Below, in pieces: positions 5,360 through 25,436 of a DNA stretch of 64,000 nucleotides. This stretch comes from Prevotella sp. (GTDB taxonomy: Bacteria; Bacteroidota; Bacteroidia; Bacteroidales; Bacteroidaceae): positions 1-64,000 of the forward strand of contig JAFUTI010000024.1 of the NCBI GenBank assembly GCA_017471465.1, written 5' to 3'. The notes under the pieces are model-generated. The model saw nothing but the letters and a program-made list of their open reading frames with translations, had not been told where the DNA came from and made no database searches. Every line of letters begins with the position of its first letter. Positions within the stretch are counted from its first letter, which is position 1. A program made the position numbers and the translations under genes.

Positions 5360-6268
5360 TTACTGTTTGATTTTCTCCCAGGTATTGTTCTGTGAGGCAT
5401 TAATACTGAAGAGAATGTCGTAGACGGCTTCCTTCTCCTTCTGCGTGCCCTTACCTTTATATATATTAGCCAGCTCGTCCTTCTTGTAGTCCGTCCATAT
5501 CTGGGGCAGCAGACTCAGGGGCTTGTCCTCGTGAGCCTTCTTTAACCCTGTTTCTAAAGCTGTCGTCACCTCCGTGCGGCCGCGCTCCACATTGGTGGCC
5601 ATCTCGTCGAGTCCCTTGCGGTAGTAGTCGTACTGTAACTGGCGGAAGGCCTTCATGGCCTCATCCAGGTAGTCGTTGATGATGGCAAAGCGGTTGCGCG
5701 AGTCCTCGAACGATTTCCATCCCGGGAATCCCAAGTCCTGGGCATTGTTCACCAGGTACATACAGCGTTGCAGCACGTCAGTGCCACCCAAGGGGGAGAA
5801 GGTGTCGAGGTCGAGACCGATGATGAGGTAGGCGTAATAGGCAAAGAGAGCTGTCAGCTGGTTGTCGACGGTCTCGTCGGTGAAGTTCAGCTGGTCGAAC
5901 TGTGCAAACTGGAACTGGAACTGCTTGTCGGTGTTGTTGTAGATAGTCGTTGTGTAAGCAGAGTTCCATACAGGACGGTTGGCCTGGATGATGGCCGTAC
6001 ATTCGAAGCGGTTCTCGGCCTGCACGTACTTGTCGACAGTAATGTTGAAGTTGCACTGTATGCGCTCGTTCTGCTGAAACTGCAATGCCGTCCACTGGCG
6101 CTCGTTGACAAACTGCTCAAGCGTCTGTTTCAGGTTCTCAAAGACTGAGGCATCGGTGCCTTGAATCTTGGAGTGGTTGATGTTAATCTTTGCCTCCAGT
6201 TCCTGAGTACTAGCCACGTGAGCTACAAGAAGAAGCGCAAGAGTGAGAACAGTTTTCCTAATCATCAC
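5360..6268 (-). CDS. porD: Type IX secretion system protein PorD (DUF4835)
   Basis: This is a 302-residue protein with a signal peptide (MMIRKTVLTLALLLVAHVAS). It matches the DUF4835/PorD family in order: an N-terminal strand ELEAKININHSKIQGTD, a VNERQWT segment, QANRPVWNSAY, then YAYLIIGLDLDTFSPLGG, and a C-terminal helical part ending NTWEKIKQ. PorD is a periplasmic or outer-membrane-associated protein of the T9SS, which exports proteins bearing C-terminal tails such as the one at 411-899. The start overlaps the end of the exonuclease gene by 4 bases. In relatives this gene also sits next to recN, often with coaBC between the neighbours; coaBC is absent here. Confidence 0.85.
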   Translation of the reverse strand: MMIRKTVLTLALLLVAHVASTQELEAKININHSKIQGTDASVFENLKQTLEQFVNERQWTALQFQQNERIQCNFNITVDKYVQAENRFECTAIIQANRPVWNSAYTTTIYNNTDKQFQFQFAQFDQLNFTDETVDNQLTALFAYYAYLIIGLDLDTFSPLGGTDVLQRCMYLVNNAQDLGFPGWKSFEDSRNRFAIINDYLDEAMKAFRQLQYDYYRKGLDEMATNVERGRTEVTTALETGLKKAHEDKPLSLLPQIWTDYKKDELANIYKGKGTQKEKEAVYDILFSINASQNNTWEKIKQ

Positions 6269-7083
6269 TTGTTCATAGTGGCTTCCCGCAGTCTTATACG
6301 TGTCAGCACTTGTTTCGTGTTGTAGGTAAAGTCACCTGCTAGTATCCAACTATAGTAACCAGGGTCAAAGCGCAGGACGTCGGCAACCGGTTTGCCTTTA
6401 TGTTTGCCAAAGTTAAACACTTCTGTACGCTGACCGTTGACGTCTTGCCACACGATACGTCCGGCAAAGTCGACATTGTCGTTCTGCTTTGAGAATTCTG
6501 CCAACTTGTCCATATCGTTCTCCAGCACTTTCTCAGGATCCTCGTTAGCGCCAGGGGCATACTTGTCGAGTTCGCCCATCAGCACGCGGTAAGTGGCTTC
6601 AGTGTCCTGGTCGGCACGATGGGCTTCAAAGTCATCCTCCATCTTACGGCCGCAGTAAAACTTGTAAGCTGCTGCCAGATTGCGGCGTTCCATCTTGTGA
6701 AAAATGGTCTGTGCGTCAATCAATCGACATTTGGAGAAATCAAAGTCGATGCCAGCACGTAGAAACTCCTCAGCTAGCAAGGGTACATCAAAATGGTTGG
6801 AGTTGAAACCAGCAATGTCGCTTCCTGAGAAAACTTCGTTAAGCTTACTTCCAAGCTGTTTGAATGTGGGTTTGTCTTTCACGTCATCAGCACCAATACC
6901 CGTCAGCTGGGTGATAAATGGGTCGATAGGACACTCAGGATTAATAATCTCGTTGCCACGCTCCTCGCGGCCATCAGGATATACTTTAATATAAGATATT
7001 TGGATGACACGGTCTTTTACCAAGTCCAATCCCGTAGTTTCCAAATCGAAAATGACCAGAGGCTTCGTCAGATTAAGTTTCAT
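6265..7083 (-). CDS. DnaQ-like 3'-5' exonuclease (DEDDh) with extra C-terminal domain
   Basis: This 272-residue protein starts with Exo I (IFDLETTGLD; D13 and E15 are metal ligands). It continues with the Exo II region (GFNSNHFDVPLLAEEF) and the DEDDh His (HRADQDTEATY). Residues 200-272 form a small extra domain (FNFGKHKGKPVADV, then PGYYSWIL) like that found after several RNase T/ExoX-type exonucleases. It begins 6 bases after dnaN, which fits a proofreading or repair exonuclease working with the sliding clamp. The true PolC/DnaQ partner of the replicase cannot be decided from sequence alone. Confidence 0.88.
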   Translation of the reverse strand: MKLNLTKPLVIFDLETTGLDLVKDRVIQISYIKVYPDGREERGNEIINPECPIDPFITQLTGIGADDVKDKPTFKQLGSKLNEVFSGSDIAGFNSNHFDVPLLAEEFLRAGIDFDFSKCRLIDAQTIFHKMERRNLAAAYKFYCGRKMEDDFEAHRADQDTEATYRVLMGELDKYAPGANEDPEKVLENDMDKLAEFSKQNDNVDFAGRIVWQDVNGQRTEVFNFGKHKGKPVADVLRFDPGYYSWILAGDFTYNTKQVLTRIRLREATMNK

Positions 7084-7089
7084 TGTCTA

Positions 7090-8214
7090 TCAGTCGTTTA
7101 ACAGCATGGGCATCATCAACATCAAAACATCCTGGTTCTCAGGCTGCTCAGATGGCAAAACGAGACCGGCACGGCTTGGGTCGGCCAGTTGAATGACAAT
7201 CTCCGGACAATCGAAGTTGCTCAGTACCTCAATAAATGACGAACCTTTAAAACCGATACTCATGGCCTGACCGTTGTAGTCGCATGACATACGTTCGGTA
7301 GCTGTCTTTGAGAAGTCGTAGTCTTCTGCATCAAGCTGCAAAACAGCATTCTCAACATGGAAGCGAATCAGGTTGCTTGAGTCATTGGCGAAAGGCTGTA
7401 CGCGGCGGAGTGCTGCCAACAGGCCAAGACGGTCAACTCGAAGTTCATTGGGATTGTTCTGAGGAATGACAGAGTTGTAGTTGGGGTAACGACCCTCTAT
7501 GAGACGGCAAAGGATGATACCGTCGCCATAGTTGATTTCGGCATTACGCTCATCGAAGCGGATGGTGATGTCACCACCTTCTTTGCCTAGCATGTTCTTC
7601 AACAGCGTAGCAGGTTTCTTAGGGAGAATGAATGAAGCAGGTTGGTCGCTTTTGATGGTGTATAATTTGTTGCGTACCAGTTTGTGGCCGTCAGATGCCA
7701 CAATAGCCAGACAATCAGGTGTCAGATCGAAATAGATGCCGTTCATAACAGGACGCAACTCGTCCTGAGCTGTCGCAAAGATACTGCGATTAATATTCTC
7801 TGACAGCATTTGGCTATTGATAATGATGGAAGTTGAAGCATCGCCGATAGTTTGTGCTGTAGGATATTCGTCAGCATTTTCCGTAGGCAGACTGAATAAA
7901 CCGTTTTGGTATGTTATCTTGGCGATTCTCGCACTCATGTCAACATCAAAGGTGATGGGCTGTTCAGAAAACCCTTTGACAGCTTCCAACAGGTCGTGAT
8001 TGCCGATAGCAAAGCGACCGTTACCATCGCTTTCGTTCAGTTCCACCGTCGTCTGCATAGTGTTTTCACTATCTGATGCAGTCAGGCCCAGAGTCTGTCC
8101 GTTAATGTCAAATACAAAGTCGCCGAGAATAGGAAGGGCGTTCTTACTGTTGATTACTCTTGCGAGTGCTACGAGTTTTGCACTCAGTGCGGTGCTTGAT
8201 ACTGTAAATCTCAT
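7090..8214 (-). CDS. dnaN: DNA polymerase III beta subunit (sliding clamp)
   Basis: The 374-residue protein is of normal length with three clamp domains. It starts MRFTVSSTALSAKLVALARVI, and the domain boundaries are near residues 120 and 245. Family landmarks include GDFVFDI, the LPTENADEYP segment, FILPKKPATLL and the C-terminal MMPMLLND in place of the MPMR-type end. The homodimer ring tethers the polymerase and repair proteins to DNA. It is the first gene of a five-gene minus-strand unit (dnaN, exonuclease, porD, recN, TPR protein), with a promoter in the divergent intergenic region shared with the DUF3127 gene. dnaA and an origin are not in view. Confidence 0.96.
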   Translation of the reverse strand: MRFTVSSTALSAKLVALARVINSKNALPILGDFVFDINGQTLGLTASDSENTMQTTVELNESDGNGRFAIGNHDLLEAVKGFSEQPITFDVDMSARIAKITYQNGLFSLPTENADEYPTAQTIGDASTSIIINSQMLSENINRSIFATAQDELRPVMNGIYFDLTPDCLAIVASDGHKLVRNKLYTIKSDQPASFILPKKPATLLKNMLGKEGGDITIRFDERNAEINYGDGIILCRLIEGRYPNYNSVIPQNNPNELRVDRLGLLAALRRVQPFANDSSNLIRFHVENAVLQLDAEDYDFSKTATERMSCDYNGQAMSIGFKGSSFIEVLSNFDCPEIVIQLADPSRAGLVLPSEQPENQDVLMLMMPMLLND

Positions 8215-8251
8215 AATATAATATTGTTTTTATTTACTACTCATTGGGCTA

Positions 8252-8283
8252 CAAAATTACAAAAAAAAAGTGTGATTAGAAAA
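8252..8283 (-). promoter_or_regulatory. Promoter for the dnaN operon
   Basis: On the minus strand TAATTTTG (8252-8259) matches the -7 consensus. TTTT (8280-8283) sits 20 bp upstream as an imperfect -33. The leader would be about 30 bases. Confidence 0.55.
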
Positions 8284-8374
8284 ATTTATGCTTAAAAATT
8301 CTGCTTTTCAAACTATTTTTAGTACTTTCGCAGTCGCAAATCACTTAAATCAACATTTTAATACATAAATAATA

Positions 8375-8773
8375 ATGGATTTAACAGGTAGAATCATTGC
8401 TGTATTGCCAGCACAGAGTGGCGTTTCTTCACGCACAGGTAATTCGTGGATGTCTCAAGATTATGTAATTGAGGTCCCCGGACAGTATCCACGTCGTTGT
8501 GTCTTCCGTATCTTCGGAGAAGATCGTATTAAGCAGTTTAATGTTCAGATGAATGAGGATGTGACTGTACAGTTCGAAATTGATGCCCATGAATATCAAG
8601 GCCGTTGGTTCAACGACATCCGAGCCTATAATATCATTCGCGGTCAGGTTGCTCCTGCCGCCGGCGCAACACCATTCCCGCCGACACAGCCAGCTGCACC
8701 CGCATCTGACGCGCCATTCCCACCAGCACAGGAAGTTCCGGCCGAGGGTTCCGCCGACGACCTACCCTTTTAA
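8375..8773 (+). CDS. DUF3127 OB-fold protein with SSB-like acidic tail
   Basis: This is a 132-residue cytoplasmic protein. Residues 1-92 match the DUF3127 family of Bacteroidota (MDLTGRIIAVLPAQSGVSS, a PRRCVFRIFGED strand pair, NDIRAYNI), predicted to be an OB-fold related to single-strand DNA binding proteins. Residues 93-126 are a Pro/Ala-rich linker, and the protein ends ADDLPF, very like the DDIPF tip by which SSB recruits repair partners. It is divergent from dnaN. Its stop codon overlaps that of the ferredoxin gene (3' to 3', 4 bases). A DNA-binding role is inference; the family has no function I know to be proven. Confidence 0.75.
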   Translation: MDLTGRIIAVLPAQSGVSSRTGNSWMSQDYVIEVPGQYPRRCVFRIFGEDRIKQFNVQMNEDVTVQFEIDAHEYQGRWFNDIRAYNIIRGQVAPAAGATPFPPTQPAAPASDAPFPPAQEVPAEGSADDLPF

Positions 8774-16594: not shown

Positions 16595-17608
16595 TTACTT
16601 ACCGTTCAGAGCAAGGCTCACCTCAACGGCGATAGATACCGTAGCACCTACCATCGGGTTGTTACCGATGCCGAGGAAGCCCATCATCTCAACGTGGGCA
16701 GGCACAGAAGACGAACCAGCGAACTGAGCATCGCTGTGCATGCGTCCCAGCGTGTCGGTCATACCGTAAGAGGCGGGACCGGCAGCCATGTTATCAGGGT
16801 GCAGGGTGCGACCTGTACCACCACCGCTGGCTACTGAGAAGTAGGGCTTGCCAGCGAGCACGCGCTCTTTCTTGTAGGTACCTGCCACGGGGTGCTGGAA
16901 GCGGGTGGGGTTGGTAGAGTTACCGGTGATAGAGACGTCAACGTTCTCCTTCCACAGGATAGCTACACCCTCACGAACATCGTCGGCACCATAGCACTTT
17001 ACCTTGGCACGGGGACCATCGCTATACGGTGTCTCCTTGACGACCTTCACCTCGCCGGTGTAGTAGTCAAACTGTGTCTGAACGTATGTGAAGCCATTAA
17101 TACGGCTGATGATCATGGCGGCGTCCTTGCCCAGACCGTTCAGGATGACGCGGAGAGGCTTCTGGCGAACCTTGTTAGCCTTCTCGGCAATCTTGATGGC
17201 ACCCTCAGCAGCAGCGAACGACTCGTGACCAGCCAGAAAGGCAAAGCACTCGGTCTCCTCGCGCAGCAGACGGGCAGCCAGATTGCCGTGACCCAGACCA
17301 ACCTTGCGGTCGTCGGCCACAGAGCCGGGGATACAGAACGACTGCAGACCGATGCCGATAGCCTCAGCAGCGTCAGCGGCGTTCTTCACACCCTTCTTGA
17401 TGGCGATGGCTGCACCACAGACGTATGCCCACTTAGCATTCTCAAAGCAGATGCGCTGTGTGTCCTCACACATCTGGTAGGGATCGACGCCAGCCTTCTC
17501 GCAGATCTCGTTGGCCTCTTCGATGCTGTTGATTCCGTTCTCTTTCAGAGCGGCCAGTACCTGGTTGATACGACGCTCGTAGCTCTCGAATGATACTTTT
17601 CTAATCAT
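16595..17608 (-). CDS. GGGtGRT protein of unknown function
   Basis: This 337-residue cytoplasmic protein carries the motif that names the family, ASGGGTGRTLHPDN (GGGTGRT at about residues 262-268). It also has SGNTSNPTRFQHPVAGTYKK-like nucleotide- or cofactor-binding features and a GHESFAAAEGAIK stretch. No signal peptide or membrane segment is seen. It begins 14 bases after the IscU/NifU-like scaffold gene, and the pair is transcribed from one promoter. That pairing, known in many anaerobes, suggests a job in iron-sulfur or sulfur chemistry, but no activity is established to my knowledge. Confidence 0.82.
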   Translation of the reverse strand: MIRKVSFESYERRINQVLAALKENGINSIEEANEICEKAGVDPYQMCEDTQRICFENAKWAYVCGAAIAIKKGVKNAADAAEAIGIGLQSFCIPGSVADDRKVGLGHGNLAARLLREETECFAFLAGHESFAAAEGAIKIAEKANKVRQKPLRVILNGLGKDAAMIISRINGFTYVQTQFDYYTGEVKVVKETPYSDGPRAKVKCYGADDVREGVAILWKENVDVSITGNSTNPTRFQHPVAGTYKKERVLAGKPYFSVASGGGTGRTLHPDNMAAGPASYGMTDTLGRMHSDAQFAGSSSVPAHVEMMGFLGIGNNPMVGATVSIAVEVSLALNGK

Positions 17609-17622
17609 AGTCCTGGTCCTCC

Positions 17623-18324
17623 TTATTCTTTACGTGGATCAATAACCTTAACAATTCCCTGCTCGGCGGTGGTGCGGCCATAGCTGCCGGTGAACTTCTT
17701 CACAGCCTCGTTGGCGTCCATACCGTCCTTGATAGCTTCCATCATCTTGCCCAGATGTACATACTCGTAACCGCAAACCTGGTTGTCCTTGTCAAGGAAC
17801 TGCTTGGTGATGTAACCCTCGGTCAGCTCCAGATAGCGTGTGCCCTTGGCAACGGTGCCGTAGAGCGTACCCGTCTGTGAGCGCAGACCCTTACCCAGGT
17901 CTTCCAGACCGGCGCCGATAACGAGACCACCCTCAGAGAAGGCGCTCTGTGTGCGGCCATAGACAATCTGGAGGAACAGCTCGCGCATAGCGGTGTTGAT
18001 AGCATCGCAGACGAGGTCGGTGTTCAGGGCCTCGAGGATGGTCTTGCCAGGCAGGATCTCAGAAGCCATTGCTGCTGAGTGAGTCATACCCGTGCAACCG
18101 ATCGTCTCGACAAGCGCCTCCTGAATGATGCCGTCCTTGACGTTGAGCGACAACTTGCAGGCACCCTGCTGAGGTGCGCACCAGCCGATTCCGTGAGTGT
18201 AACCTGAGATATCCTTAATCTCTTTTGCCTGAATCCATTTGCCCTCTTCAGGAATGGGGGCGGGTCCGTGGTTAGGACCTTTGGCAACAACACACATGTT
18301 GTTGACTTCGTTAGAATACTGCAT
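17623..18324 (-). CDS. IscU/NifU-like iron-sulfur scaffold homologue
   Basis: This 233-residue protein is related to the NifU N-terminal/IscU scaffold. The IscU-like cysteines appear as Cys49 or Cys56 (GIGWCAPQQGACKL), Cys77 (ETIGCTGMTHSA) and Cys106 (TDLVCDAIN). It is longer than IscU (about 130 residues), with an added C-terminal region after residue ~125 ending in KKFTGSYGRTTAEQG. It heads a two-gene unit with the GGGtGRT gene. It may build or carry an Fe-S cluster or another sulfur species for its partner; the extra domain has no known role. Confidence 0.78.
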   Translation of the reverse strand: MQYSNEVNNMCVVAKGPNHGPAPIPEEGKWIQAKEIKDISGYTHGIGWCAPQQGACKLSLNVKDGIIQEALVETIGCTGMTHSAAMASEILPGKTILEALNTDLVCDAINTAMRELFLQIVYGRTQSAFSEGGLVIGAGLEDLGKGLRSQTGTLYGTVAKGTRYLELTEGYITKQFLDKDNQVCGYEYVHLGKMMEAIKDGMDANEAVKKFTGSYGRTTAEQGIVKVIDPRKE

Positions 18325-21008: not shown

Positions 21009-21054
21009 TATCTTCTTTTTACCTCTTTTTCGTTTGCAAATTTACTGATTATTT

Positions 21055-21070
21055 TGCAAACACTGTGCCA
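21055..21070 (-). promoter_or_regulatory. Sigma-54-type -24/-12 promoter of clpC
   Basis: On the minus strand TGGCACAGTGTTTGCA matches the RpoN consensus (TGGCAC-N5-TTGCW) with the exact GG-to-GC spacing. The -12 GC is at 21056-21057, which predicts a start near 21044 and a leader of about 36 bases. A TAAATTTG (21037-21044) in the leader could be a second, housekeeping -7 box. Confidence 0.7.
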
Positions 21071-25328: not shown

Positions 25329-25369
25329 AGTTCTGTATCTTGTTGTTTATATGTTTCCGACTGTGATTA

Positions 25370-25385
25370 TGCAAAAAGTGTGCCA
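25370..25385 (-). promoter_or_regulatory. Sigma-54-type -24/-12 promoter of htpG
   Basis: On the minus strand TGGCACACTTTTTGCA matches the RpoN consensus with exact spacing. The predicted start is near 25359, with a leader of about 31 bases. No TAnnTTTG is present between it and the ATG. Confidence 0.72.
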
Positions 25386-25401
25386 AAAGTCGTTTAATGA
25401 T

Positions 25402-25430
25402 GGAGGCAGAGTCTTAAATACTCTGCCTCC
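25402..25430. terminator. Hairpin after the kinase/lipoprotein unit
   Basis: Perfect 11-bp arms GGAGGCAGAGT and ACTCTGCCTCC flank a 7-base loop, 6 bases past the lipoprotein stop. The downstream T-run on the minus strand is poor. Confidence 0.75.
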
Positions 25431-25436
25431 CCAGTG

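Follow-up and report, generated by a model that had tools for sequence, protein, structure and literature searches.

A conserved sigma-54-type promoter element upstream of htpG in Prevotella-type bacteria and a candidate activator for a chaperone regulon

Introduction

Sigma-54 serves elsewhere as a factor for nitrogen, motility or envelope genes. In the window, by which we mean the whole stretch of 64,000 nucleotides analyzed here, the gene for the HSP90 chaperone HtpG is preceded by what looks like a perfect -24/-12 element of this sigma factor, and a twin of the element precedes clpC. This raises the question of whether htpG is read by RNA polymerase carrying RpoN, which other genes would share the same switch, and which activator would operate it. 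Here, we address the question by comparing the element across relatives, by following it to other genes, and by surveying RpoN and sigma-54 activators in the same genomes.

Results

Promoter elements upstream of htpG, clpC, and lon

The 16 bases TGGCACACTTTTTGCA upstream of htpG, read on the minus strand, match the sigma-54 consensus exactly and carry the TGG-N10-GC core, in agreement with the original prediction of a perfect element at this site (Table 1). The first base of the element lies 57 bp from the ATG, and the upstream region including it reads TTTTGGCACACTTTTTGCATAATC on the same strand. Judging from the spacing, transcription of htpG would be expected to start near position 25359, 12 bases past the C of the GC pair, giving a leader of approximately 31 nucleotides. 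Between the upstream open reading frame and the element lies a stable hairpin (z score of -4.96, with none of 200 shuffles as stable), which is probably the 3' end of the upstream transcript; the terminator role is one that we infer, since no T run directly follows the hairpin.

In the accessible text of PMC7366714, the housekeeping -7 box of Bacteroidetes is given as TAnnTTTG. No such box is present within 250 bp upstream of htpG in the window, as had been claimed for this gene. The exact pattern TGGCACN5TTGCW occurs twice in the window, against a mean of 0.10 in shuffled sequence, and none of 100 shuffles reaches two occurrences. Allowing one mismatch leaves a count that is only weakly informative (7 versus a mean of 2.9, with 3 of 100 shuffles reaching 7). 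The two exact occurrences are the elements of htpG and clpC, and the two genes thus share both consensus and spacing, as originally proposed. At lon, the predicted housekeeping promoter is consistent with TAACTTTG, a sequence of the housekeeping -7 box type located 28 bp before the ATG; the best sigma-54-like site in the lon upstream scan has three mismatches, and we do not count lon among the genes preceded by the element.

Table 1. Positions of the promoter elements, genes, and hairpin discussed in the text.
Feature	Position	Strand	Basis or remark
clpC, 847 aa	18465..21008	-	Pfam: Clp_N, two AAA modules, UVR motif (HSP100)
Candidate housekeeping -7 box of clpC, TAAATTTG	21037..21044	-	at -36
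Sigma-54 element of clpC, TGGCACAGTGTTTGCA	21055..21070	-	exact match, 62 bp before clpC
htpG, HSP90 chaperone, 684 aa	23274..25328	-	NF003555, E 1.2e-198
Predicted start-site box	25355..25361	-	GGCARAA columns +24 to +30, 79 aligned promoters
Sigma-54 (-24/-12) element of htpG	25370..25385	-	TGGCAC-N5-TTGCA; GG 25384-25383, GC 25372-25371
Stable hairpin between upstream ORF and htpG element	25398..25433	-	-22.1 kcal/mol
lon, 822 aa	41597..44065	-	catalytic motif scan, upstream scan

Minus-strand proteins of the window, when used as queries for family and similarity searches, were one codon short at the start. The ClpC protein also matches the NCBIfam ClpB and ClpA models, in both cases below cut-off. 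Downstream of clpC, the minus strand encodes a NifU_N-like protein (weak, below cut-off) and a GGGtGRT protein (positions 16595-18324).

Conservation of the htpG element

Of at least 580 similar htpG loci, the 80 best-matching ones were used to assess conservation; they show 83 to 94% protein identity and are therefore close relatives. According to their record titles, all of them belong to Prevotella, Prevotellaceae, Xylanibacter, or Bacteroidales, and many come from rumen or other gut samples; the nearest named htpG relatives of the window genome are Prevotella. Together with the window itself, 74 of 81 htpG upstream regions contain the strict motif and 5 more contain a relaxed form, while the remaining two have neither (L020 is degenerate and L072 has one mismatch). 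Mononucleotide shuffles of these regions, which like our other shuffle controls take no account of how the sequences are related, yield 4e-5 strict and 9e-4 relaxed matches per region, and the reversed pattern is found in 0 of 81. Across both strands of the 80 fetched loci (390,528 bp), the strict motif occurs 73 times, always upstream of htpG. The distance from element to ATG ranges from 48 to 83 bp, with a median of 57.

The column profile of 79 sites reads TTTGGCACG-N-TATTTGCA, and conservation is near background further upstream. Alignment of the same 79 promoters reveals a second, weaker conserved box, GGCARAA, 24 to 30 bases after the first T of the element, which by its spacing sits where sigma-54 transcripts should begin.

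Outside the family, a search of 109 genomes of the phylum gave 72 with a match, of which the best 30 (the window genome and 29 others) were compared. A site with at most two mismatches is present in 23 of the 29 (24 of 30 with our own locus), compared to 8.6% of shuffles, and 18 of these 24 sites lie between -34 and -71. Distant htpG elements often read TGGTAT-N5-TTGA, i.e., they end in TTGA, not TTGC. A composite pattern joining the element to the HtpG N terminus gave three matches in 395 genomes of the class, our own included; this pattern requires one codon set and a gap of 20 to 50 bases, so that the low number reflects low sensitivity and not absence.

Recurrence of the element at other chaperone genes

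For clpC, 30 loci were sampled from 31 family genomes, our own included, and 22 of them carry a site with at most one mismatch (21 of 29 without our own), compared to 0.33% of shuffles. In detail, 8 loci match TGGCAYN5TTGCW exactly, 14 have one mismatch, 3 have two, and 5 have three, the last group including L252, L260, and L261, whose start is poorly placed. Upstream of groES, the window genome carries TGGCACGGTTTTAGCT, with one mismatch, at 64 bp. All 29 testable groES loci (among 30) have a site with at most two mismatches, 17 of them with one and 12 with two. Without our own locus, 28 have at most two mismatches and 16 have one, whereas shuffles give 8.9% and 0.8%, respectively.

The original prediction had suggested a motif scan, which we ran genome-wide. 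The assembly of the window genome comprises 2.396 Mb in 53 contigs and is 63% complete. It contains 7 exact sites versus 5 for the reversed pattern, and 220 versus 171 with one mismatch. Four of the 7 exact sites are located at chaperone gene starts, namely those of clpC, htpG, a DnaJ-type gene, and hsp20; of the remaining three, two fall within coding frames, and the third has no following gene in its direction. The scan is thus favorable as to where the sites fall, but their total is near that of the reversed control. Defining the regulon by genome-wide counts of the bare motif was rejected as too noisy.

When eight relatives are added, the exact matches number 54 versus 20 for the reversed pattern. 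Inspection covered 53 of the 54 (a match on contig C95 of G398 was left out) and flagged 35 as falling within frames of 150 aa or longer, although a few of these (e.g., L009 and L123) represent starts of genes that a long open frame overlaps. Eleven of the inspected matches precede chaperone genes, four of them in the window genome. In the relatives, the genes concerned are htpG (G396, G398, and G400), dnaK and grpE (G398), groES (G397), and a DnaJ-type gene (G395), while no exact match before a chaperone gene was found in G399, G401, and G402. The chaperone identities of the 11 were based on a Pfam or NCBIfam match, except for htpG of G396, which was read from the protein start. Exact sigma-54-like sites were also observed in G395, 53 bp before a phosphoglycerate mutase (iPGM, gpmI) gene (L124), and in G396, before an NlpC/P60 gene.

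The near-control total, together with the three exact sites of the window genome that are not at a correctly oriented gene start, is what one would expect if the element were a chance match to the consensus and htpG were read from an unrecognized housekeeping promoter. We consider this highly improbable, as 79 of 81 htpG regions keep the element while their flanks diverge, and as the element recurs at clpC and groES. A further point is the count of TAnnTTTG: within 80 bp of the start codon, the box is present in 4 of 81 htpG regions (mononucleotide shuffles predict 2.7%), and within 150 bp, in 10 of 81 (5.4% predicted). We therefore regard the element as real because of its position and conservation; genomic counts alone would give no proof. 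Since it recurs at clpC and groES and, in one or two genomes each, at dnaK, grpE, a DnaJ-type gene, and hsp20, the proteostasis regulon proposed from the window alone gains support.

RpoN and the search for an operator

A single RpoN is encoded in the window genome, with an intact ARRTVAKYRE, which we take to be the RpoN box. RpoN is present in 58 of the 59 genomes used for the htpG and clpC comparisons. In the exception, G425, which is 97% complete, the clpC site is perfect and an activator is present, yet RpoN gave no match; either its rpoN gene is missing from the assembly or its clpC site is a relic.

A k-mer and dyad search for an enhancer site, performed on 60 non-redundant regions of the 79 htpG regions, found no shared operator. 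Some words do exceed shuffles (one 9-mer, for instance, recurs in 12 of the 60, against at most 5 in shuffled sequence), and these over-represented words look like conserved neighboring coding sequence and divergent housekeeping promoters. The lack of an enhancer site in this search, as well as the conserved position of the element near the start codon, would also fit a conserved operator that is bound by a different protein and is similar to a sigma-54 site by coincidence. This explanation appears improbable in view of the GG-10-GC geometry, the start-site box at sigma-54 distance, and the near-constant presence of RpoN. It is further opposed by the sigma-54-type starts that have been mapped for such genes in Flavobacterium psychrophilum, as reported in the accessible part of PMC9723704. 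We thus retain a promoter read by RpoN as the most probable explanation of the element.

Candidate activators

All 61 family genomes searched encode at least one strong sigma-54 activator (best E value of 1.1e-63 or better). The window genome has one strong match (E value of 1e-67) and three weaker PF00158 matches, ClpC itself among them. The strong match (contig C33, L205, positions 6092-8643) has a receiver-AAA-HTH architecture and is directly followed by a PAS histidine kinase. Its contact loop reads GSFTDA, whereas the canonical sigma-54 contact loop is GAFTGA. Loops of the type GAFTDA or GSFTDA were found in 10 of 23 parsed family activators, our own included (23 of 30 best-activator loci could be parsed).

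A second type of activator, approximately 410 aa long and without a receiver, heads an lptE-TPR-secG gene group in family loci L194 to L203. Among these 10 loci, which were chosen for an activator frame of this length and annotated by simple ORF calls and reading of protein starts, a TPR-type gene follows in 10 of 10, lptE in 9 (not in L200), and secG in 9 (not in L201). A domain check, performed on L194 only, identified PF00158 from residue 15, LptE, a weak TPR match, and SecG. The protein carries its AAA+ domain at the N terminus, preceded by neither a receiver nor any other sensor, and Walker A begins at index 39 to 47 in 28 copies parsed from 29 loci. Approximately 110 residues separate the AAA lid from the HTH, and they include a conserved EREILYxxLFxLR-like stretch in 26 copies (out of 29 activator loci, these 26 remained after filtering); for this region, no solved relative was found by sequence. 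As a control, the upstream region of the activator gene itself was scanned, and 1 of 19 has a site with at most two mismatches (the start is misplaced in L300).

The 410-aa protein was recovered from 19 of 20 hand-chosen htpG relatives, with 71 to 76% identity, and in 15 of the 20 no other activator match reaches an E value of 1e-40. Of these 15, 14 keep the htpG element, and only L020 does not. The protein was not found in the window genome (63% complete, receiver type only) or in G539; G170, a relative from the same genus, does have it.

Two activators thus come into consideration for the same promoter. A two-component route, in which the receiver-type activator of contig C33 would respond to its adjoining histidine kinase, is favored by the lack of any other strong activator match in the window genome. 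We hold it to be rather unlikely, since the assembly is 63% complete, since the 410-aa protein is the sole strong match in most of the hand-chosen relatives and nearly all of those keep the htpG element, and since the GSFTDA loop departs from the canonical form, although DA-type loops are common in the family. The receiver-less protein is the most likely activator of the chaperone promoters, because most of the checked relatives that keep the promoter have no other strong activator match.

Discussion

A proposed mechanism and its implications

A -24/-12 element with conserved sequence and spacing lies before htpG, its genomic companions are RpoN and at least one activator, and it recurs at a set of other chaperone genes. 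We propose that this element is a promoter recognized by the RpoN form of RNA polymerase. The polymerase would remain at the element in a closed complex, which an AAA+ enhancer-binding protein would open at the expense of ATP, and mRNA would then start near the predicted site at 25359. In the window genome, clpC, groES, the DnaJ-type gene, and hsp20 are most likely under the same switch, as are dnaK and grpE in relatives, and together they would form a proteostasis regulon. The enhancer-binding protein would most likely be the receiver-less one of approximately 410 aa from the lptE-TPR-secG operon. For this reading as a whole, i.e., an RpoN-read promoter within a proteostasis regulon that is likely controlled by a receiver-less activator, we estimate a probability of about 0.9. 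The RpoN dependence of the htpG element, its start site, and the signal inducing htpG are what we infer.

A further-reaching proposal, to which we give slightly less than even odds, is that sigma-54 is the main proteostasis sigma factor of Prevotella-type bacteria, under a single receiver-less activator, in place of a sigma-32 or repressor system. If this is true, the supply of chaperones would be tied to lipopolysaccharide assembly and protein export through the activator of the lptE-TPR-secG operon. As 15 of 20 relatives have a single strong activator match, the command over chaperones in these gut bacteria is testable by one gene deletion.

Comparison with known systems

PspF of Escherichia coli is the phage-shock activator and has a link to the envelope. 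Like the 410-aa protein, it is an AAA+ sigma-54 activator without an N-terminal regulatory domain. Unlike PspF, the 410-aa protein has approximately 110 residues between AAA lid and HTH, and by sequence it is matched better by AAA domains of the NtrC and FleQ types than by PspF.

In the open-licence literature, we found nothing on rpoN together with htpG in Prevotella, and no link from a receiver-less activator to a chaperone promoter. Passages of two Bacteroides thetaiotaomicron transcriptome papers and one regulatory-network paper yielded no mention of sigma-54 for the terms used (PMC7366714, PMC10994844, and PMC12596196), and those of PMC3162934 and PMC2754498 no link for Bacteroidota. In the accessible part of the aRpoNDB survey of 2025 (PMC12316311), HSP90 (COG0326) is enriched as a predicted sigma-54 target in Bacteroidia, COG0542 proteases appear as targets in Flavobacteriia and Bacteroidia, and a chaperone cluster comprises GroES, GrpE, DnaK, and IbpA. 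The survey also lists COG0466 (Lon), whereas lon of the window lacks the element. It remains at survey level, the words Prevotella, htpG, and clpC being absent from its main text, and the accessible part assigns no activator to the chaperone genes. Where the same survey states that grpE and groES of B. thetaiotaomicron depend on sigma-54, it cites reference 80, which by its title is a Blattabacterium genome paper; this citation looks misnumbered.

The closest known system is the SM4 (sigma-54) set of the related fish bacterium F. psychrophilum, for which the accessible part of PMC9723704 gives mapped starts before htpG, groES-groEL, dnaK, grpE-dnaJ, clpB, lon, and skp. Both sets have -24/-12 elements at htpG and groES; at dnaK and grpE, the counterpart on our side consists of the exact sites in one relative, G398. 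The F. psychrophilum set includes lon and gliding motility, whereas lon of the window looks housekeeping, and clpC, hsp20, and the DnaJ-type gene belong to the set described here as differences from F. psychrophilum. That bacterium has three PF00158 proteins, whereas 15 of 20 Prevotella relatives have one strong match. Its unit of sigma-54 regulator and lptE is assigned to SM5, not SM4, and the activator gene described here is likewise without a sigma-54 site upstream. A sigma-54 proteostasis regulon is thus already known from F. psychrophilum and is not new. Here, the chaperone set known from this one flavobacterium is extended to Prevotella-type bacteria, with its core kept at htpG, clpC, and groES, and to it we add the footprint in Prevotella, the conserved box at the predicted start site, and a receiver-less candidate activator.
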